From NCBI GenBank assembly GCA_958430865.1, contig CAUDNR010000615.1, forward strand, positions 1,918 to 28,135: a stretch of DNA of 26,218 nt, written 5' to 3'. The notes below the pieces were generated by a model, which was given only the letters and a program-made list of their open reading frames with translations, ran no database searches and had not been told where the DNA came from. This DNA is from Entrophospora sp. SA101 (Eukaryota > Glomeromycota > Glomeromycetes > Entrophosporales > Entrophosporaceae). A program made the position numbers and the translations under genes. Of this stretch, positions 1 through 24,969 are shown piece after piece. Numbering within the stretch: the first letter of the stretch is position 1; each line of letters begins with the position of its first letter.

Positions 1-739
1 AAAATATAAAATATTACCACTGTGAAGATCACCATGTGTAAGTTTTTCTTGGTGAAATGTGTTTAAACTTGAAATGATATCATAAAGCCTTGTGATTCTG
101 TTATTCCAATTTCTACAATATAATTTTAAATATTCCCTGTAATCTCCTAGTTCTGCATATTTCATTATGAGTACATATTCTTTTGTATTTGGATCTTGTG
201 AAATACCATAAATATTAACTATACCCATTTGATGAGGTCCTATAAATTTGATGTGGTTTTGAAGCTTTGTGAAAATTAATAAAAAATTAATATATTATTT
301 AAAAATCATTAATTGTCAAATTATATCAAATTATTTACCTCTTTTAAAAACTCTTCAGAAATGTCTTGAGAATTTTTAACCTTTTTTAATGCTACATGAC
401 CAATATTGCAATAAGATCTTGTATTTTTGTAAACATATCTAAGACCATTTGACCAATTACACTTATGCACAGTTGCAAAACCACCTTCACCTATTGCTTC
501 TTTAACTGTGAGTTGGTCATAAGGAATCCACTCAAGGTAATGATAACTATCAAATCCTTTTGCTTCAAGCTGTGTATTTCTGATTATTTCATCTAATTTG
601 TCATTACCACTGCTAGTCCAACTTTGAGCTAACAATTTGGGATCACATGATTGACACCACTGGTAATTAGTATTATACCTTGCACAAACAAAACAGGTTC
701 CATATTCTTTTTTCCCTTTTTTAAACTCCTTAGTGTTAT
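1..739 (-). CDS. Tyrosine-kinase-like protein kinase, 3'-truncated by the window edge
   Basis: Two exons are supported, 739-339 and 264-1, joined by a 74-bp intron (265-338; donor GTAAAT, phase 0). The first exon starts with a small Cys motif, CFVC followed by WCQSC (about 645-695), typical of the N-terminus of the large kinase families of arbuscular mycorrhizal fungi and perhaps zinc-binding. It continues with a glycine loop (GEGGFATVHK), the VAIK-type lysine (HVALKKVK) and, after the intron, a hinge (LIMKYAELGDYREYL) and the catalytic loop HGDLHSGNIL. The usual HRD arginine is Gly here, although the catalytic Asp and Asn remain. The activation loop and C-lobe lie beyond base 1. Acceptor choice for the 739 end is uncertain: an AG at 740-741 keeps phase 1, while alternatives lie at 729-730 and 707-708. 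In-frame stops just upstream mean the start codon is in another exon. Signalling substrate unknown. Confidence 0.85.
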
Positions 740-823
740 CTTATTATTTCATAAAAATAATGTAAATTTATTTTTCAACATAATTGAAAGTTATAAAATA
801 ATTAAATTTATAAATTATTTTAC

Positions 824-833
824 CTTCAGTCAT
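824..833 (-). other. Candidate alternative first exon or zero-length splice site of the kinase gene
   Basis: On the minus strand this reads ATGACTGAAG followed directly by the donor GTAAAA. It sits exactly where the next array unit would be: the upstream TTTATAATAAC matches the 3' end of the repeated introns, but the CAG acceptor is replaced. Two readings fit. It may be a 10-nt first exon ending in phase 1 that splices over an 84-bp intron to 739. Or it may be an AG immediately followed by GT, like a recursive splice site with a zero-length exon. A very similar ten-base sequence, ATGAATGAAG with a GTATTT donor, lies at 2065-2074. Transcripts would decide. Confidence 0.4.
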
Positions 834-924: not shown

Positions 925-1946
925 ATTTACCAGCTGTTATTATGAAGAAATAAGAAATATTTAATTAGATGATGCTATGAAAATTTATTTTATGCTGTAA
1001 AAATTACTTACATGCTGGTTATCATAAAGAAAAATAAATTTATTAATTAGTTGATGTTTTGATAAAAATTATTTGTAAAAGTTTATGATATGATACTTAC
1101 TTCCTGATTATTATAAAAATTTATTGATTAGACAATGTTTTAATAAAATTTATTTTGTGTTAATTTATAATATATTACTTACCAACTGGTTATTATAATA
1201 AAAAAATAAACTTATTGATTAGATATAAAAATTATAAAAGTTGATTTATAATACAATAAAATGCTTACCAGCTGGTTATTGCAAAAAAATAAAAATGAAT
1301 TTATTTAGTTGATGTTTTAATAAAATTTATTTTATGTAATGTATAAAAGCATAATACTTACAATCTGGTTATAAAAAAAAGTAAAAATTGTATTTATTTA
1401 ATTAGACAATGTTTTAATAAAATTTAGTTTGTAAGAAGTTGGTTCATATAATGCTTACATACTGGTTATTATAAAGAAATAAAAATTTTATTTAATTAGA
1501 TGATGTTTTAATAAAGTTTATTTTGTGTTGTAAAAGTTAATTTATAATATAATACTTACTCTCTGGTTATTATAAAGTAATAAAAAATAATTAGAAGATG
1601 TTTTAATAAAGTTTATTTTGTGTTGTAAAATTTAATTTTATAATATAATACTTACCAGCTGGTTATTATAAAGAAATAAAAAAAAATTTATTTAATTAGA
1701 TGATGTTGAAGATAAAGTTTATTTTGTGTTGTAAAAGTTAATTTTATAATATAATACTTACCAGCTGGTTATTATAAAGAAATAAAAAATAAAATTATTT
1801 AATTAGATGATGTTGAAGATAAAGTTTATTTTGTGTTGTAAAAGTTAATTTATAATATAATACTTACTCCCTGGTTATTATAAAAAATAAATTTATTTAA
1901 TTAGATGATGTTTTAATAAATTTTATTTTGTGAAATATTTATTTAC
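925..1946 (-). repeat. Tandem array of intron-like units enclosing eleven 3-nt microexon candidates
   Basis: Eleven imperfect repeats of about 81-106 bp. Read on the minus strand, every junction is CAG, then three bases, then GTAAG or GTAAAT. The three-base windows are 931-933 CTG, 1012-1014 CAT, 1101-1103 GAA, 1183-1185 TTG, 1269-1271 CTG, 1362-1364 ATT, 1459-1461 TAT, 1560-1562 AGA, 1656-1658 CTG, 1762-1764 CTG and 1868-1870 GGA. Flanks are conserved while the triplet varies. Implied introns are 76-103 bp, and each keeps a CTAAT/CTAATC/CTAAA branch-point-like motif about 25-40 bases before the acceptor. None of the triplets is a stop. Read in phase 1, as the outer exons need, they give GTAEIYSVGTS. 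Whether these triplets are exons or the array is a minisatellite in a long intron cannot be told without RNA. Confidence 0.7.
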
Positions 1947-1961
1947 CTTTATAGAATTTAG
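1947..1961 (-). other. Candidate 15-nt exon at the 5' end of the microexon array
   Basis: Minus strand CTAAATTCTATAAAG lies between an acceptor (AATTAG, AG at 1962-1963) and a donor GTAAAT (1941-1946). The downstream sequence is the same intron type as in the array. Its length is a multiple of three and it is open; in phase 1 it gives AKFYK with the flanking G. It would link the candidate start exon at 2065-2074 to the 3-nt exons. Confidence 0.4.
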
Positions 1962-2064: not shown

Positions 2065-2074
2065 CTTCATTCAT
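2065..2074 (-). other. Candidate first coding exon of the kinase gene
   Basis: ATGAATGAAG followed by donor GTATTT (2059-2064). A tiny first exon ending in phase 1 is also inferred for the MBP1-like gene in this window (ATGCAAG at 13581-13587, also with a GTATTT donor). A 103-bp intron would lead to the 15-nt exon. Reading on through all candidate exons keeps phase 1 into the kinase exon at 739. This is inference from splice grammar only. Confidence 0.35.
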
Positions 2075-2591
2075 TTTTTTATTGGAATATAAAATTTTGT
2101 CTACTATTCCTTATAATTTTGTGAAACCTCTGAATATCTGCAAAATTATAAATATTCTTGAAAAGATATCTGAATTAGCAGTTCATAAATCAATTCATAT
2201 ATATTTTTTAAATGTATAGCTTGCTTAATATTAATATAACATTTCTGAATTGATTTATTTTAGTAAGTTATGTTCTGTTCATAACTAAATCTTATTTTAG
2301 AAATCATTAATCATTTGACATTTTTCTTAACGGCATTGATCATTCAATTTTAATAATTTGCAACATGGATAATTCAATTTTTTCTTAATGTGATGTCAGT
2401 TATTTGATTTTTAAAAGGTTTTGTTGTAATTAATACTGTAAAATAGTAATTTTACATATCATGCAAATAAAAATATCTCAAACAATGGAGAAATAAATAT
2501 TCTAACTTTTTAAATATAACAGATTTTTAATTCTTAGATTTAATTTAAACAAAGTAATTTAAATGATTGGGTCACTTTAGAAATAACTTTA
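2075..2591. other. AT-rich intergenic stretch, nothing recognised
   Basis: No open frame of note, no RNA gene and no clear repeat. It would hold the promoter of the minus-strand kinase gene if 2065-2074 is its first exon, but I see no convincing TATA box. Confidence 0.5.
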
Positions 2592-2674
2592 AATTTTTTC
2601 TGACATGGATTTATGTAATTATTACACTATTTACATAAGTTATGGCGGGTCCCATAATTATGGCACGCCATGCT

Positions 2675-2815
2675 GGACAAAAGTGTACCACATTTTGTTG
2701 TAATTAATTGCAACAATTTGTTGCAAAAAGTTGCAACATTTTGTTGTAAAAAAATAATTGCAACATTTTGTTGTAATTAGTTGAAACGTTTTGTTGTAAT
2801 TAATTGCAAAATTGG
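2675..2815. repeat. Left subterminal TTGTTGCAA repeat cluster of the nested transposon
   Basis: Repeated TTTTGTTG(C/T)AA motifs spaced by AT-rich links, mirrored by the right cluster at 4129-4310. Such subterminal clusters in other transposons are transposase-binding sites; that role is inferred here. Frames through both clusters are rich in TTKCCN-type repeats and are not genes. Confidence 0.7.
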
Positions 2816-4128
2816 ATGATCTGCAAGTAAAATTTTTGTCCAATTGTAAGAAATAAATGCAGTTTAAAGTTTTTCTTTTACATTTCATTTCTACATAAAT
2901 AATGACGATTAAAATAATTAGATAATGTGAGCAAGCAACAATAATATACAAATTGTCAAAAAGAAGGGATATTTAATAATATTATTAAAATGCATCAAAT
3001 ATTAAATAACTACTAAATATTAACAATAATAAGTTTTGAATATTATGTGCAATAGAATTCAGGCTTTCTTTTGAATCTAAGATCACTCAATTCGATCAAG
3101 TACTTAGCAAGATACAAAAATATATGGTAATAGGTAATGAACTATAGCATATCGTATAACTAGATAAAGCATTCATAAATTATATTTACAAAACTTGCTT
3201 TTCAAGCTTTGATCTCATTTAGTGTTAGTTAATTAGTTTTAGAGAGATTTATAAAAAAATAGTTTTATGAAGTAATGGTGGTAACATGATTTTTTTTTTA
3301 ATATTTACTTTTGTATCTATTTTTTAAATTAGTATTTATATATATATTTAAGAATGTAATAATTAAATTAAAAAAGTATTTACACAATTTCTTTTTCCAA
3401 AGGTTAATGATTGAAAAAAATCAGAAAGAATTATTATGATATATTCTTGTAAGATCTAGCGGTGTACGGATCATAAAGAATTGTCACGCAGCCATATTTT
3501 ATTATTTTTAGAAAACAGGTAGAAAATTCAACAGTTGATATAACAATTATACTATCAATTATTAATCACTTTTTTTAGATCTGATGGTGTATGATCAGAA
3601 AGAATTGTTACGCGGCCATATTTTATTATTTTTAGAAATAGGTAGAAAATTCAACATCAAAAAGTATAGTTAATATATTCTTGTAATAACAATTATACTA
3701 CTAATTATTAATCACTTTTTTTAGATCTGGTGGTGTACGATCAGAAAGAATTGTTACGCAACAATCAAATTGATTATTATTATTATTATATGTTACTATT
3801 ATTATTGTTTTAAATCTTTAATTTAATTTGATTTTTTCTATATATTTTAGAAAGGGAATATGCATATCCATTTTATTAATTAATTATTAGCAATTATTCA
3901 GTTATTTATCCATTTTATTAATTAAATTTATTCAGTAAATGCTCAGTCATTTATCCAAGCTTTATCCATTTTATTAATTAAATTATATCAGTGAAACCAT
4001 TTTTTATGAAAAATGGAATTTCCATAAATGTATCATATATATTCATTAATATAAACAGGAAAAACACTGAGATTAATCACGGAATAAATTTTTTGCAAGC
4101 CTGAAAAAATTTAGACACCTATCTATAA

Positions 4129-4310
4129 TTGCAACTTTTTACAACAAAATGTAGTCGTGCCATACAATTAACAACAAAATGTTGCAACTTTTTACAACAA
4201 AACGTTGCAATTAATTACAACAAAATGTTGCAACTTTTTACAACAAAATGTTGCAATTATTTTTTTACAACAAAATGTTGCAACTTTTTGCAACAAAATG
4301 TGGTACACTT
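4129..4310. repeat. Right subterminal TTGCAACAAAA repeat cluster of the nested transposon
   Basis: Inverted counterpart of the left cluster, slightly longer, with about seven ACAACAAAATGTTGCAA-like motifs. It includes an internal transposon-end-like sequence at about 4153-4163, which suggests that ends were duplicated within the element. Confidence 0.7.
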
Positions 4311-4469
4311 TTGTCCAGCATGGCGTGCCATACATAATATTATGCAAATAAGCATGCAAAAATTATGCAATTATTACATTGAGTGTAAACATTACATAAT
4401 TTTTTATGCAAATATTACAACTTTACATATTAAAATTTATGGACGTAATATTATGACAGGAAAATTTCC

Positions 4470-4829
4470 TGATGAATAACTTGAAAATATTTCTACACAG
4501 AAGGTTCAAGTAATACATTTAATTAGGATTTCAAAAAAATCAGAGAACTGGATGATCAAACCTTTAACATGTATAAATTATGTTGTATTTTTCTCAACTT
4601 CATGTATCATCTTTAATCATCATTCATAATCATCATTTAATAAATAATACTGTCCTTTATCCTTGTACTTATTGTCTTCAAACATTATATTTTCATAGTG
4701 ATAATAAATTTATCTCTAACAATGAATTCATACTAATCCCGTGCATAATTATTTTCTCTTATTTTATATTTGTCTCTATTATTTTTATTATTTTTTATTT
4801 CTTTCTTTTATTTTAGTGAGATAATTATA
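4470..4829. other. AT-rich spacer, nothing recognised
   Basis: An open frame at 4580-4816 is rich in Ile, Phe and His from AT-rich sequence and has no recognisable domain. I do not call it a gene. Confidence 0.5.
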
Positions 4830-4976
4830 CATGAAGTCAAAACTATTTTGACCATCTGCAGATCTTAATCTGGTCAAAATAGGGTCGAAATAAGGTCAAA
4901 ACTGATTTTTACTATGTATATGTAGTTGCCTCAAGTTGAAACATTTCAACTTTGGGGTTTTAATTTTGACTTCATG
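4830..4976. mobile_element. 147-bp TA-flanked MITE (Tc1/mariner-like)
   Basis: Ends are the inverted repeat CATGAAGTCAAAA / TTTTGACTTCATG, bounded on both sides by TA (4828-4829 and 4977-4978), the target duplication typical of Tc1/mariner elements. The interior is non-coding and holds further inverted pieces (TTTTGACCA with TGGTCAAAA; GTTGAAAC with TTTCAAC). Confidence 0.7.
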
Positions 4977-5336
4977 TATAGAGATAATATTTAATAAATT
5001 TTATTTAATGAAATATGGAGACATACCTGGCTTGGTAGCAAAGAGAAAAACAGCTACAGTACCTGGACAAAAGTTTCAGAACACTTGTTATTGTTCACTG
5101 CGCAAAAATGTACATAATAAACATATATGAAATTTATATCATTTGCGGTTTAGTTCCTTGTAAATATCTATGCAAAATTCCATGCGTCTAGGTTCCGTAG
5201 AACTCGAATAAATATATAAAAATGAAATTCGATTAAAAATTTTCTTTGACAATCACTAAATTTCTGATGCGAAATTTTTTTTTTATTTTATTACTCAAAT
5301 TTTATGTAATAATTTAATTTAAAATTTTAACTACTT

Positions 5337-5411
5337 TTAATATTTAGTTGGGTATCCTTTGCTCTTAATACAAGCCTGAATTCTTCTAGGCATGCTTTCA
5401 ATCAAATTCAT
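5337..5411 (-). pseudogene. C-terminal remnant of a Tc1-like transposase
   Basis: The minus strand encodes NLIESMPRRIQACIKSKG then YPTKY and a stop. This is the conserved tail of Tc1-like DDE transposases (consensus near LIESMPRR..A.I...G..TKY). Only about 24 codons remain; upstream the frame runs into the TTTCGTCGA repeats. It is a relic and cannot be active. Confidence 0.75.
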
Positions 5412-5417
5412 TAAAAA

Positions 5418-5745
5418 AGGTCTGACTCATTTCGTCGGACAATCATTTCGTCGACAGTCATTTCGTCGACACCCATTTCGTCGAAAGTTTGTTTCATCGA
5501 ATGTTCATTTCGTCGAATGTTCATTTCGTCGAAAATTATTTCGTTACAAAAAAAAAACTTCATTAAACAAATTTCTCCTCACACTTCCCACACACTCCGC
5601 TTTCCTCACCTAATTTCTTAACTAACTTCCCACACTCCTCACATCTAACTCATTCGGTCTCTGTCTCGAGGATGAAACAATTTTCGACGAAATGAACATT
5701 CGATGAAACAAACTTTCGACGAAATAATTTTCGATAAAGTAAAGC
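5418..5745. repeat. Inverted TTTCGTCGA minisatellite arms
   Basis: 5425-5545 carries about eight CATTTCGTCGA-type motifs on the plus strand. 5675-5740 carries TTTCGACGAAAT motifs, the reverse complement, separated by a pyrimidine-rich spacer. The layout (short subterminal motifs in opposite orientation) resembles the nested transposon at 2659-4332, so this is probably a non-autonomous element. I could not fix its ends or a target duplication. Confidence 0.6.
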
Positions 5746-5834
5746 GACCGATTAAAAAAATTAGTTTCGTCAAAGTTTAGGCCAATTAATTTCGGCAATT
5801 TCGGTCCACTAAGCTTATTTTTGGCCACTATCAC

Positions 5835-6470
5835 TAGTTCGAATCGAGTTGAGTTGAATCAGTTCAAATCAATGTTGTGACCCGAGACTCTGAGTTTAGG
5901 GAAGACCCGAAACAGAAACTAACAGAAACCAGTTTAGGTTAGTAGTTTATGCTTAGGTTTAGTTTTAGTTTTAGTTTTCTGCTTAGTGTAAGTTCATTTT
6001 CCGAAACGTTTCGGGAAGCCAAAGAGTTTCTGGTCACAAAACTGGTTCAAATCAAATTGAATCGAACAAGTTCGAATCAAATTATATATATTTAATATTC
6101 GAATCAGTTCGAATCGAATCGAATCGAATCAGAGTACAATTCGAATTTGATTCGACTCAAATCGAATTTCATTGATTCGTTCGGAGCTTTATCTGTTATG
6201 AAATTGAGTATTCGAATAAATAAAACGAATAATCATAAAGCGAATAATAATAAGAATTTATATTACGAATAGAAATTCTATATATTAATATTAATATATA
6301 ACAAAAAATTAATACAATTCACAGTTGCGCAATTCATTGTTTTAAATTTAAATATAAATATCAAATTAGATTGTTTATAGGCTTGAATCGAATCGAATAA
6401 AAACACGATTCGTGTTCGATTCGAGCGAAACGAATCAGAAATTTGATAATTCAAATCGGTTCGGTTCAGT
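5835..6470. repeat. GAATC/TTCGAA-rich degenerate repeat region
   Basis: Runs of TCGAATCGAATCGAATC and degenerate TTCAAATC occur at 5838-5870, 6043-6180 and 6375-6470, split by the MITE at 5875-6039 and by AT-rich sequence. The minus-strand frame at 6278-6616 runs through it and is not a gene. Confidence 0.6.
5875..6039. mobile_element. 165-bp MITE inside the GAATC repeats
   Basis: Inverted ends TTGTGACCCGAGACTCT and, from the other side, TTGTGACCAGAAACTCT, with two mismatches in 17. A second inverted block (GGGAAGACCCGAAAC against GTTTCGGGAAGCC) lies near the ends. Both flanks are TTCAAATCAA-like sequence of the surrounding repeat, so the target duplication is hard to define. The interior holds telomere-like TTTAGTTTTAG runs. 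Confidence 0.6.
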
Positions 6471-6474
6471 TCTA

Positions 6475-7135
6475 ATTTTATTGATTCATTCAAAGTCTTA
6501 CTCCTAATAAAAAAACAATGAAATATCAGATTCAAGAAAATTGTTAAATGAATAATTAAAGACAAAAATATGAATCGCACAATGATGGTAAATCTTTTTT
6601 TGTCATTGCTATTCATTATGTTGGTAAATTAAAATTTTTGTCAAAATCTATTAAATTAACACCAATTGATTTCACATCTTACAGATGCTCAATTGGCAGA
6701 AGCAGAAAAAATATGAATACAAAAAATAAGGAGATTCGAAAATAAATTTTTCAATGCGAGTTATAAAAGCTTTGTTGTACAGATTAAGATTTTTTTGAAA
6801 ATATATAATAATAGTAATAGTGTACGTTTTGCTTTTTCACTCAAAAATATTCATTATACAAAACTCCAAAAATCGTGATACAAAAAAGGATGTACGAGTT
6901 TTAAATACCTTTGTTATTATATGATCAGACCTTGTGACCAGGATCCTTATCTGAACTTTATTTGAAATTAGAAAATCTTGGCAAGGGCAAGAATAAGAAA
7001 AGAAAATAGTTACAATAATGAAATCAAAAAATCATTTTGGAGAATTTGTAGCACTTAATATTAAACAAGTTAGACTTGATTGCGGAGTAGAAATCTCTCT
7101 TAATAATGTTGGTGGAATTCCTTCAATGATATAAT
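6475..7135. other. AT-rich intergenic stretch, nothing recognised
   Basis: No supported gene. Short open pieces (for example about 7020-7130, plus strand) have no recognisable motif. Confidence 0.4.
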
Positions 7136-9899: not shown

Positions 9900-9948
<49 letters not shown>

Positions 9949-10087
9949 CCATCATCACCACCATCATCATAATTATAATTATCATCTTAGCCACCATAAT
10001 CATAATCATAACCATAACCATAACCATAATCATAATCATAACAATCATAATCATAGTCATAGTCATAATCATAATCATCATAATCAC

Positions 10088-10141
<54 letters not shown>

Positions 10142-23434: not shown

Positions 23435-24969
23435 TCAAGCGAAAATAGGAATTCCAAATGTTGTACCGGGATCATTGAATCTTAATTTTCTGTCCAATGA
23501 AGAGATTGCTTTAACTTCCTCGTCGGTCAAAGTAAATTCTATGACTTTATGATTTTCAACAAGTCTACTTGGATTAGTTGACTTTGGTATAACCACGATA
23601 TTACGTTGAACTGCCCAACGAAGTGCCACCTATCATTACAACAACGAGGATTGCATAAATATATTATTATTATTATTAATACTGAAATTATCACCATTCA
23701 TTCCCAATATATATTAATATGAAAAAAAAGACAAACCTGAGCAGTAGATCTGTTATATTTCTTTGCAATCTGTTCCAATATAGGTTCTTTTAACAATTGA
23801 GGAGAGTTCTCGTCTTTTTTCGGTCCATAACTACTTGAACGTATAGATGAGTAGGCATTCACTGCCAAACCTTGAGATTTTGCATAATCTACCAATTGTT
23901 CTTGTGTCAAGTATGGATGATGTTCTATTTGTAGAACTGCTGGTTTGACACGTGCATATTTCAACAAGTCCATTATCAACGCTGCATTAAAATTAGAAAT
24001 TCCAATGTTCTGTAAATATATGATGAAAGTGAATGAGTCATGTACGTACACATACAAAATACTTGTGTATATGTATATGTATGTATATATATATATATAC
24101 ACTCACCCTAACCAATCCAGAATCAACCAATTCTTCCATGGCTTCCCATGTTTCTCTAATGGTGACATTTTCTTGAATGCAAGTCTTATTCTTGGTATCG
24201 TAATACCAATCAGCAGGATAACGTTCTTTTGGATCAACACATACAAAATACTTGTGTATATATATATGTATGTATATATATATATACACTCACCCTAACC
24301 AATCCAGAATCAACCAATTCTTCCATAGCTTCCCATGTTTCTCTAATGGTGACATTTTCTTGAATGCAAGTCTTATTCTTGGTATCGTAATACCAATCAG
24401 CAGGATAACGTTCTTTTGGATCAACATGTTTCAAAGAGATAGGGAAATGGATCAAGTAAAGATCTAAATATTTTACTTTAAGATCATTAAGGGTTCTCTC
24501 AAGAGCTGGTCTAACATGTTCTTTTTTATGAAAAGTGTTCCATAACTATTTGCGAACTAGTAGTTAAAAAAAGGCTTCGCTCATCACAATTCATCACAAT
24601 AAATATGTTTATTTGTTTATTTTTATTACCTTGGATGTGATGAAAATATCATCACGTTTAACAATTCCATAATCGATCGCTTTCTTAATCCCATCGCCTA
24701 TTTCTTTCTCATTGCCATAAAGGGCCGCACAATCCTACATCCATCCGTCAAAAAAAAAAAAAAAAATCACAAATCGTTAAATAGATTACAAATAAAACAA
24801 ACAAACAATTTCAAATATAAACATTTACCAATAATCGATAATCATTTTTTAAAGCTTGATAAATACTATCGGCAACTTTGTCATTAGGTAATTCCCATGA
24901 ACCGAAACCAACAAGTGGCATACGGTCGCCTGTCGGTCTTAAAATAATAGCATTATCTGAGGATACCAT
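23435..24969 (-). CDS. Aldo-keto reductase (AKR family), five exons
   Basis: NAD(P)H-dependent carbonyl reductase of the (beta/alpha)8-barrel family. Exons: 24969-24829, 24734-24630, 24545-24294, 24009-23737 and 23629-23435. All introns are phase 0 and the spliced product is 321 residues, the usual length. The tetrad is complete: Asp of [12 protein letters not shown] (the DCA aspartate, split by intron 1), Tyr of LYGNE, Lys of FITSKLWN and His of LYLIHFP. Cofactor motifs follow: [18 protein letters not shown] (substrate-barrel Gln/Glu), and [17 protein letters not shown], the phosphate-binding loop. It ends [12 protein letters not shown]. The start is the first ATG, giving MVSSDNAII before the barrel. 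Relatives include xylose and glycerol reductases; the substrate cannot be read from sequence. A duplicated exon piece lies inside intron 3 (24107-24236). Confidence 0.93.
24048..24425 (-). repeat. 189-bp tandem duplication of exon 3 end plus intron 3 start in the aldo-keto reductase
   Basis: Unit A (24048-24236) and unit B (24237-24425) are almost identical: one substitution in the coding part (GGC/AGC context near 24142/24329) plus length changes in the TATA/CATA microsatellite. Each contains coding sequence from [13 protein letters not shown] to ELVDSGLVR followed by donor GTGAGT. Using donor B (24293) and the acceptor at 24010-24011 removes copy A and restores a normal enzyme. An AG at the end of the microsatellite (ACACAAG) would join copy A in frame, but only over an intron of about 37-39 nt. 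Confidence 0.9.

Follow-up and report, generated by a model that had tools for sequence, protein, structure and literature searches.

Introduction

The spliceosome has difficulty recognising exons that are very short. In human RPS24 one microexon is 3 bp long, the gene holding three microexons and no known repeat array or hypervariability, and the bicycle genes of aphids have many microexons. The three RPS24 microexons are described as consecutive (PMC12686416, PMC11162997), the 1-nt microexons of plant APC11 and VPS55 indicate that exons shorter than 4 nt can be spliced (PMC8831610), and bicycle genes are presented as a rapidly evolving family (PMC9168663). The micro-exon genes (MEGs) of Schistosoma have exons of 3–81 bp, each gene having 10 to 20 that are very short; the exon sizes differ, the introns range from 100 to almost 5000 bp, and the products are secreted proteins (PMC10526429).

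Here we describe arrays of candidate 3-nt exons in the genome of an arbuscular mycorrhizal fungus, Entrophospora sp. SA101 (Glomeromycotina). Introners as known so far are dispersed among genes, unlike the array introns here, which sit head to tail 3 nt apart. Many similar introns within one genome are a feature common to both (PMC9860276). Many tiny exons placed consecutively, together with protein variation, are likewise shared with the MEGs (PMC10526429); here, in contrast, the exons are uniformly 3 nt long, the introns belong to one repeat family of ~90 nt, and the host gene encodes a kinase. The plant microexons are single and conserved (PMC8831610), unlike these arrays, and the bicycle genes differ in organism, exon sizes and proteins. 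Each compared system shares single traits with the arrays, and none is known to us to combine uniform 3-nt exons, a single tandem intron family and variable codons. Among the titles and abstracts listed in our searches of an open-access literature collection, none describes such an array, and no paper in that collection mentions both Entrophospora and SA101.

Results

Eleven candidate microexons precede a kinase domain

The analysed window is a stretch of 26,218 nucleotides (C562:1918-28135 of the 101.35-Mb assembly). Its minus strand carries eleven CAG-NNN-GTAA units upstream of kinase exons, each unit comprising a putative intron of 76–103 nt and a 3-nt exon, with the CAG starting at 1873, 1767, 1661, 1565, 1464, 1367, 1274, 1188, 1106, 1017 and 936. 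The initial annotation had reported eleven minus-strand repeats with a period of 81–106 that keep CAG, GTAA and a gap of three bases, and all three features were recovered in 11/11 units (GTAAG in 10, GTAAAT in 1), along with the spacing of 81–106 and the triplet set that it had listed: GGA CTG CTG AGA TAT ATT CTG TTG GAA CAT CTG. It had also noted a branch point in essentially all units; CTRAY is present in 10 of the 11 introns preceding microexons. The pattern CAGNNNGTAAG matches the window 10 times against 0.25 expected, and none of 100 shuffles gave at least 10 matches. The features of the locus are as follows, the candidate microexons being placed by the unit pattern and the translated frame.

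2065..2074, minus strand: exon 1, ATG AAT GAA G, 10 nt, followed by donor GTATTT; ends in phase 1; placed by translation
1947..1961, minus strand: exon 2, CTAAATTCTATAAAG, 15 nt, with TTAG upstream and GTAAAT downstream; phase 1 kept
934..1946, minus strand: eleven array introns, 76–103 nt; family consensus ~91 nt
1868..1870, minus strand: candidate microexon 1, GGA
1762..1764, minus strand: candidate microexon 2, CTG
1656..1658, minus strand: candidate microexon 3, CTG
1560..1562, minus strand: candidate microexon 4, AGA
1459..1461, minus strand: candidate microexon 5, TAT
1362..1364, minus strand: candidate microexon 6, ATT
1269..1271, minus strand: candidate microexon 7, CTG
1183..1185, minus strand: candidate microexon 8, TTG
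1101..1103, minus strand: candidate microexon 9, GAA
1012..1014, minus strand: candidate microexon 10, CAT; CAT is also found at or beside the end of 10 more arrays
931..933, minus strand: candidate microexon 11, CTG, the last; its G and the AT of the following exon give GAT
821..830, minus strand: ACTGAAG|GTA, AG followed by a possible donor (TGAAG|GTAA); splits the last intron of ~190 nt into ~107 + 83 nt
339..739, minus strand: exon with CxxC-x9-CxxC and the start of the kinase domain (DNTKEFKKGKKEYGTCFVC...), from the open reading frame and paralogues
1..264, minus strand: next kinase exon (LQNHIKF...HGDLHSGNIL...), read from the sequence; continues past the window edge

Removing every intron of the window gene leaves a single open frame, which runs from exon 1 through exon 2 and the triplets into the kinase exon, MNEAKFYK-GTAEIYSVGTS-DNTKEFKKG.... 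The CxxC-x9-CxxC of exon 339..739 is zinc-ribbon-like as judged by eye, and the kinase domain is identified through the paralogue L045, which matches PF07714 (PK_Tyr_Ser-Thr / Pkinase) with an E value of 2.7e-36. A protein search with the N-terminal part returned 2 distant matches and no protein with the array-coded segment. With the whole kinase as query, the nine closest matches span 59–67% of its length, which fits genomic open frames that begin at the next exon; remoter kinases, ~33–43% identical, span up to 97%. The exon 1 motif ATGAATGAAGGT (ATGAATGAAG followed by GT) was found at 13 of 23 loci scanned and the exon 2 motif at 11 of them, the 23 including L047, a duplicate of L044.

Three further features were seen elsewhere in the window. 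Inverted copies of GGCACGCCATGCTGGACAAAAGTGTACCACATTTTGTTG at 2662-2700 and 4291-4329 surround short TTGCAACATTTTGTTG-like repeats and look like a DNA transposon or MITE. An aldo/keto reductase gene contains a 187-bp tandem duplication (24048-24426, 97% matches), apparently of an exon and an intron, and a long His-coding hexamer repeat lies within a PDEase open frame at 9901-10141. Over the region searched, this PDEase shows 100% identity to a protein cluster named Entrophospora sp. SA101.

The three-base gap and the splice sites are retained across the genome

The unit core CAGNNNGTAAGTATTATATTAT, allowing up to 2 mismatches, has 696 matches in the assembly versus 12 for the reversed pattern. 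In 27 regions sampled from the listed core matches (20 first, 7 later) we detected 19 arrays with at least 4 units, those with fewer being excluded; they hold 6 to 43 detected units each, the longest being L037 (43 units) and L036 (30). Most reside in paralogous kinase genes with common leader exons and a common downstream exon, and these kinase-type arrays (n = 16) contain 6 to 30 detected triplets. A search for the first kinase exon, with a composite of family members as query, found 51 matches at 74–94% identity and 99 at 63% or less among the best 150 of 1352 genome candidates scored; in one of the latter (401 bases read) the same exon is preceded by a different kinase-like stretch, without an array. 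The array introns are 71–117 nt long with a median of 90, introns above 119 nt having been excluded from this set, and CTRAY lies 10–60 nt upstream of the acceptor in 182 of 238 introns and is absent from 56.

When the gap in ATAACCAG...GTAAGTATTAT was left free between 0 and 24 nt, we obtained 213 matches, against 0 for the reversed control, and the gap was 3 nt in all 100 listed. The exons are therefore tiny and of a length that is a multiple of three, as in micro-exon genes. The same intron pattern with a gap of 4–33 nt has no match genome-wide, and gaps of 0–2 nt, searched with the anchor one base shorter, gave 1 match, with a gap of 2 nt. The unit profiles were seeded on 3-nt units, so the gap within them says nothing; the exon length of 3 in 152 of 153 pairs was obtained with the same seeds.

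GC-AG introns are the commonest functional non-canonical class. An anchor placed on intron bases +5 to +24 alone, which supersedes an earlier looser scan (465 sites, 237 with GT and AG, many others plainly off-array), identified 217 sites after removal of L047 as a copy of L044. AG stands exactly 3 nt before the donor at 201 of the 217, and the donor is GT at 192, GC at 8 and AT at 4; the remaining 13 look like register shifts in which the anchor slid along its own repeat. The initial annotation had said that splice-site bases mutating like the rest of the unit would refute it, and no such decay is seen. Tandem Repeats Finder calls the array region of the window as repeats with a period of 82–106, as expected of an intronic minisatellite that is removed as one intron and has CAG-NNN-GTAA as its conserved part. 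Such a repeat has no reason to retain AG at 201 of 217 sites or to vary chiefly at three bases, and we consider this explanation improbable.

In kinase-type arrays, stop avoidance is confined to the frame that the flanking exons impose

The two leader exons of the window gene each end in phase 1; the kinase exon also starts in this phase, with AT. The flanking exons thus fix phase 1 across the array, and each triplet straddles two codons: every codon takes its first base from the end of one triplet and its other two from the start of the following one, ~90 nt away in the DNA. This corrects the initial annotation, which took each triplet as a codon. Triplets read as whole codons in phase 0 were rejected because the flanking exons give phase 1 and because 3 of the 210 triplets are phase-0 stops.

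Across the 16 kinase-type arrays, with 210 triplets and 177 adjacent junctions, we counted 3, 0 and 19 stops in phases 0, 1 and 2, respectively. Shuffling triplets within arrays gave a mean of 9.27 stops in phase 1, and 0 of 20,000 shuffles reached the observed value of 0. The corresponding shuffle means are 21.3 in phase 2 and 7.0 in phase 0, where 5% of shuffles are as low as observed. Of the 16 arrays, 14 share their contig with the kinase exon; in the other two, L031 and L035, the leader exons are present and the contig or array ends or breaks before the kinase. Junctions more than 135 nt apart were excluded, as were L037, L052 and L036 array 0, which are reported apart; the last has no kinase downstream, and in it AGT and AGA would form TAG across a damaged unit.

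Paralogues share ancestry, and the shuffles therefore overstate independence. When each junction type was counted once (122 pairs), phase 1 still contained 0 stops versus 7.4 expected, and phase 2 contained 15 versus 13.9; removal of the junctions of shared 3' units left 130 junctions with 0 stops versus 8.0. A confound is that triplets starting with AA, AG or GA tend to come after TAG-type introns. With intron type held, phase-1 stops numbered 0 versus 7.8 (0/20,000 shuffles), and with both array and intron type held 0 versus 4.2, a value of 0 being reached by 58 of 20,000 shuffles. At TAG-type introns, the preceding triplet ends in T at 0 of 28 stop-prone junctions versus 9 of 17 others (Fisher p 3e-5). 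A weaker result came from exact patterns collected genome-wide, many of whose junctions come from loci already in the 16-array test: T|AG, which makes a stop, was found at 4 of 30 N|AG junctions versus T|NT at 30 of 117, a difference that is not significant (p 0.12). Two of the four T|AG junctions are on C262 (L037) and two on C973, which is without a kinase among the 150 scored kinase-exon matches; p is 0.053 without C262, and 0.003 without C262 and C973, the latter having been dropped post hoc.

Since stops are avoided only in the frame that the exons set, bases ~90 nt apart appear to be read together, and we regard this as strong evidence, drawn from sequence only, for splicing and translation of the triplets. 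On this ground we rejected a plain unspliced tandem repeat. The intronic minisatellite, too, has no reason to avoid stops across ~90 nt solely in a frame set by outside exons, and the variation is not spread across the unit regardless of coding frame, as it would be in a minisatellite.

Related arrays occur in two other gene contexts

Near-identical introns of one family were found in three gene contexts. L052 (C939:13200-17000) has 23 detected units of the same intron family placed C-terminal to the kinase C-lobe of another gene (…DDNQ G|), with a small phase-1 exon (VEVKDNAINK G|) between the C-lobe and the array; past the array, a phase-1 exon (AT TAT GGA GAT...) leads into an Asn-rich tail. 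Its 20 junctions contain 0 phase-1 stops, where just 0.56 are expected. L037 (C262:1-9000) contains the 43-unit array at ~2341-6764 on its minus strand, and no kinase was seen in it. This array has 4 stops in phase 1, 6 in phase 2 and 0 in phase 0, the last against 3.0 by column shuffle, with 2% of shuffles as low; the end of a possible exon upstream is likewise in phase 0. These observations are modest evidence that L037 may be a second gene, read in another frame.

Variable triplets are embedded in near-identical introns

Within arrays (15 arrays), introns differ by 5–14% and triplets by 59–79%. Mismatches in three parts of the intron amount to 4.2, 5.3 and 4.5% in L031, L035 and L036 and to 6.9, 6.6 and 9.8% in all kinase arrays; being spread along the intron, they indicate that the likeness is not merely one of splice signals. 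The array-coded strings are exemplified by GTAEIYSVGTSD (window), GEKKFDFEQWWEFYSAG (L031, skipping one unit with a damaged donor) and VVGGMHYHEWAEFERGKRKYQLEQYSAGTSD (L036), and YS(A/V)G occurs near the end of the segment in 7 of the 16 kinase-type arrays. Close to the 3' end some units are shared: GGA and CAT are neighbours in 9 of 19 arrays and CAT and CTG in 8 of 19. Elsewhere the triplets are almost random, so that variable and more constant parts coexist and a triplet need not be inherently unstable.

At the middle position, 182 of 210 kinase triplets have G or T, as do 41 of 43 in L037 and 17 of 23 in L052. This bias spans two likely frames and is therefore not a codon rule. GT at triplet positions 1-2, which would create a second donor, is absent from the kinase set. 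Ongoing hypermutation of the triplets was rejected, since the apparent duplicate contigs C852/C982, C312/C810 and C513/C586 carry identical triplets where both are listed, which is weak evidence because duplicate contigs may be assembly copies. A hairpin around the exon was likewise rejected: in three examples the fold was not better than that of shuffled sequences (z -0.63, 0.16 and 0.75), and TAG-type introns are without the left arm. The correlation between intron halves, within and across units, is about zero and uninformative because the comparison was ungapped.

An introner-like origin is compatible with microexons and would give intron similarity and codon diversity different histories: the near-identical introns would have spread by mobility or copying, and the triplets would be coding bases that are older or were newly captured. 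Where two units agree at all 50 flanking bases, their triplets still differ at 68% of positions if the units come from different arrays (36 pairs; 70% for dissimilar pairs) and at 47% if they come from one array (10 pairs), in line with such an origin, as are the presence of one intron family in three gene contexts and the mean mismatch of array introns at 18 loci to one consensus of 2–13%. Introners with target duplications of 3–9 bp have also been described (PMC9860276). A spacing of 3 nt kept this regularly would not be expected from random insertion. Of 194 neighbouring pairs of triplets just 12% are identical (2–9% at lags 2–8), and no empty site was seen; the low identity makes it unlikely that the triplets are simple target duplications of a transposon. 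The shared GGA-CAT and CAT-CTG units also have matching intron subtypes, with a pairwise intron divergence of 6%, the groups having been chosen by their triplets. We view an introner-like origin as possible but rather doubtful.

An AG|GT site follows many arrays

In 10 of the 19 arrays sampled, the motif TGAAGGTAA lies 85–114 nt beyond the last donor. The AG|GT site that it contains is a candidate zero-length exon, recursive splice site or remnant of an exon 1 copy. The last donor is separated from the kinase exon by 187–248 nt in the eight AG|GT arrays for which the kinase acceptor was located. Among arrays without the site, the distance of 104 in L038 agrees with a zero-length exon or a recursive splice site, and that of 181 in L057 does not. 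Such a site past the array speaks for recursive splicing stations, the units then being ratchet points that help remove a long intron and the triplets being removed or rarely retained. Ratchet points expect AG directly before GT, an arrangement present only at the single site after the array; within it the gap is 3 nt rather than 0 in the 100 listed of 213 matches. The avoidance of phase-1 stops indicates translation, moreover, and recursive splicing of the array seems very unlikely.

In the window, an in-frame ATG at 831-833 precedes the AG|GT site, and as a second start it could yield an array-free form of this paralogue. If transcription started at 833 (ATG ACT GAA G), the array would be skipped altogether by an alternative first exon in frame with the kinase exon. 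No ATG stands at the equivalent position in the 9 other arrays that have the site, and the stop avoidance would be left unexplained; we give this alternative very little weight.

Discussion

The array is real and constrained in frame, a row of exons each the size of one codon, and it belongs to a large gene family. The proposal that these are consecutive 3-nt microexons is borne out by a spacing fixed genome-wide, by AG and GT sites that are kept, with GC as the commonest substitute, by the layout of the paralogues and above all by frame-specific stop avoidance. We conclude that the array probably, and with good confidence, represents consecutive 3-nt spliceosomal exons that encode a short hypervariable segment before the CxxC motifs and the kinase domain; on the sequence evidence, it is very likely that the triplets are both spliced and translated.

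In the mechanism that we propose, each unit would combine three exonic bases with an entire short intron from a single repeat family, and intron removal would join the two leader exons to the triplets and these to the kinase exon in one open frame. The resulting hypervariable segment, often ending in a YS(A/V)GTSD-type sequence, would lie directly before the CxxC motifs and kinase domain, and it would tune or label the kinase, most likely as a binding or sorting peptide. Skipping of any subset of units keeps the frame, so that isoform diversity is possible. A more tentative extension, which we consider possible but less likely than not, is that the genes encode hypervariable kinase tails codon by codon: the tails would be stored as single-codon-sized exons, near-identical intron cassettes would be gained, lost and shuffled while the triplets diversify freely, and the whole would act as a germ-line generator of protein diversity. 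Random skipping of units would then widen the diversity further.

If spliced, rows of 3-nt exons, with only three bases between one splice site and the next, would push exon recognition to a new limit, and the arrays sampled from this one genome, with 6 to 43 detected units, offer a natural series for studying how such exons are spliced and whether arbuscular mycorrhizal fungi make use of variable kinase tails. The arrays may also explain why our searches did not recover these kinases as annotated proteins. They would constitute an extreme of finely chopped coding sequence and would show how intron cassettes can diversify proteins. Under the codon-by-codon reading, a nucleus would have dozens of these genes and a hypha many nuclei, and the tails could then act as labels for recognition or sorting.
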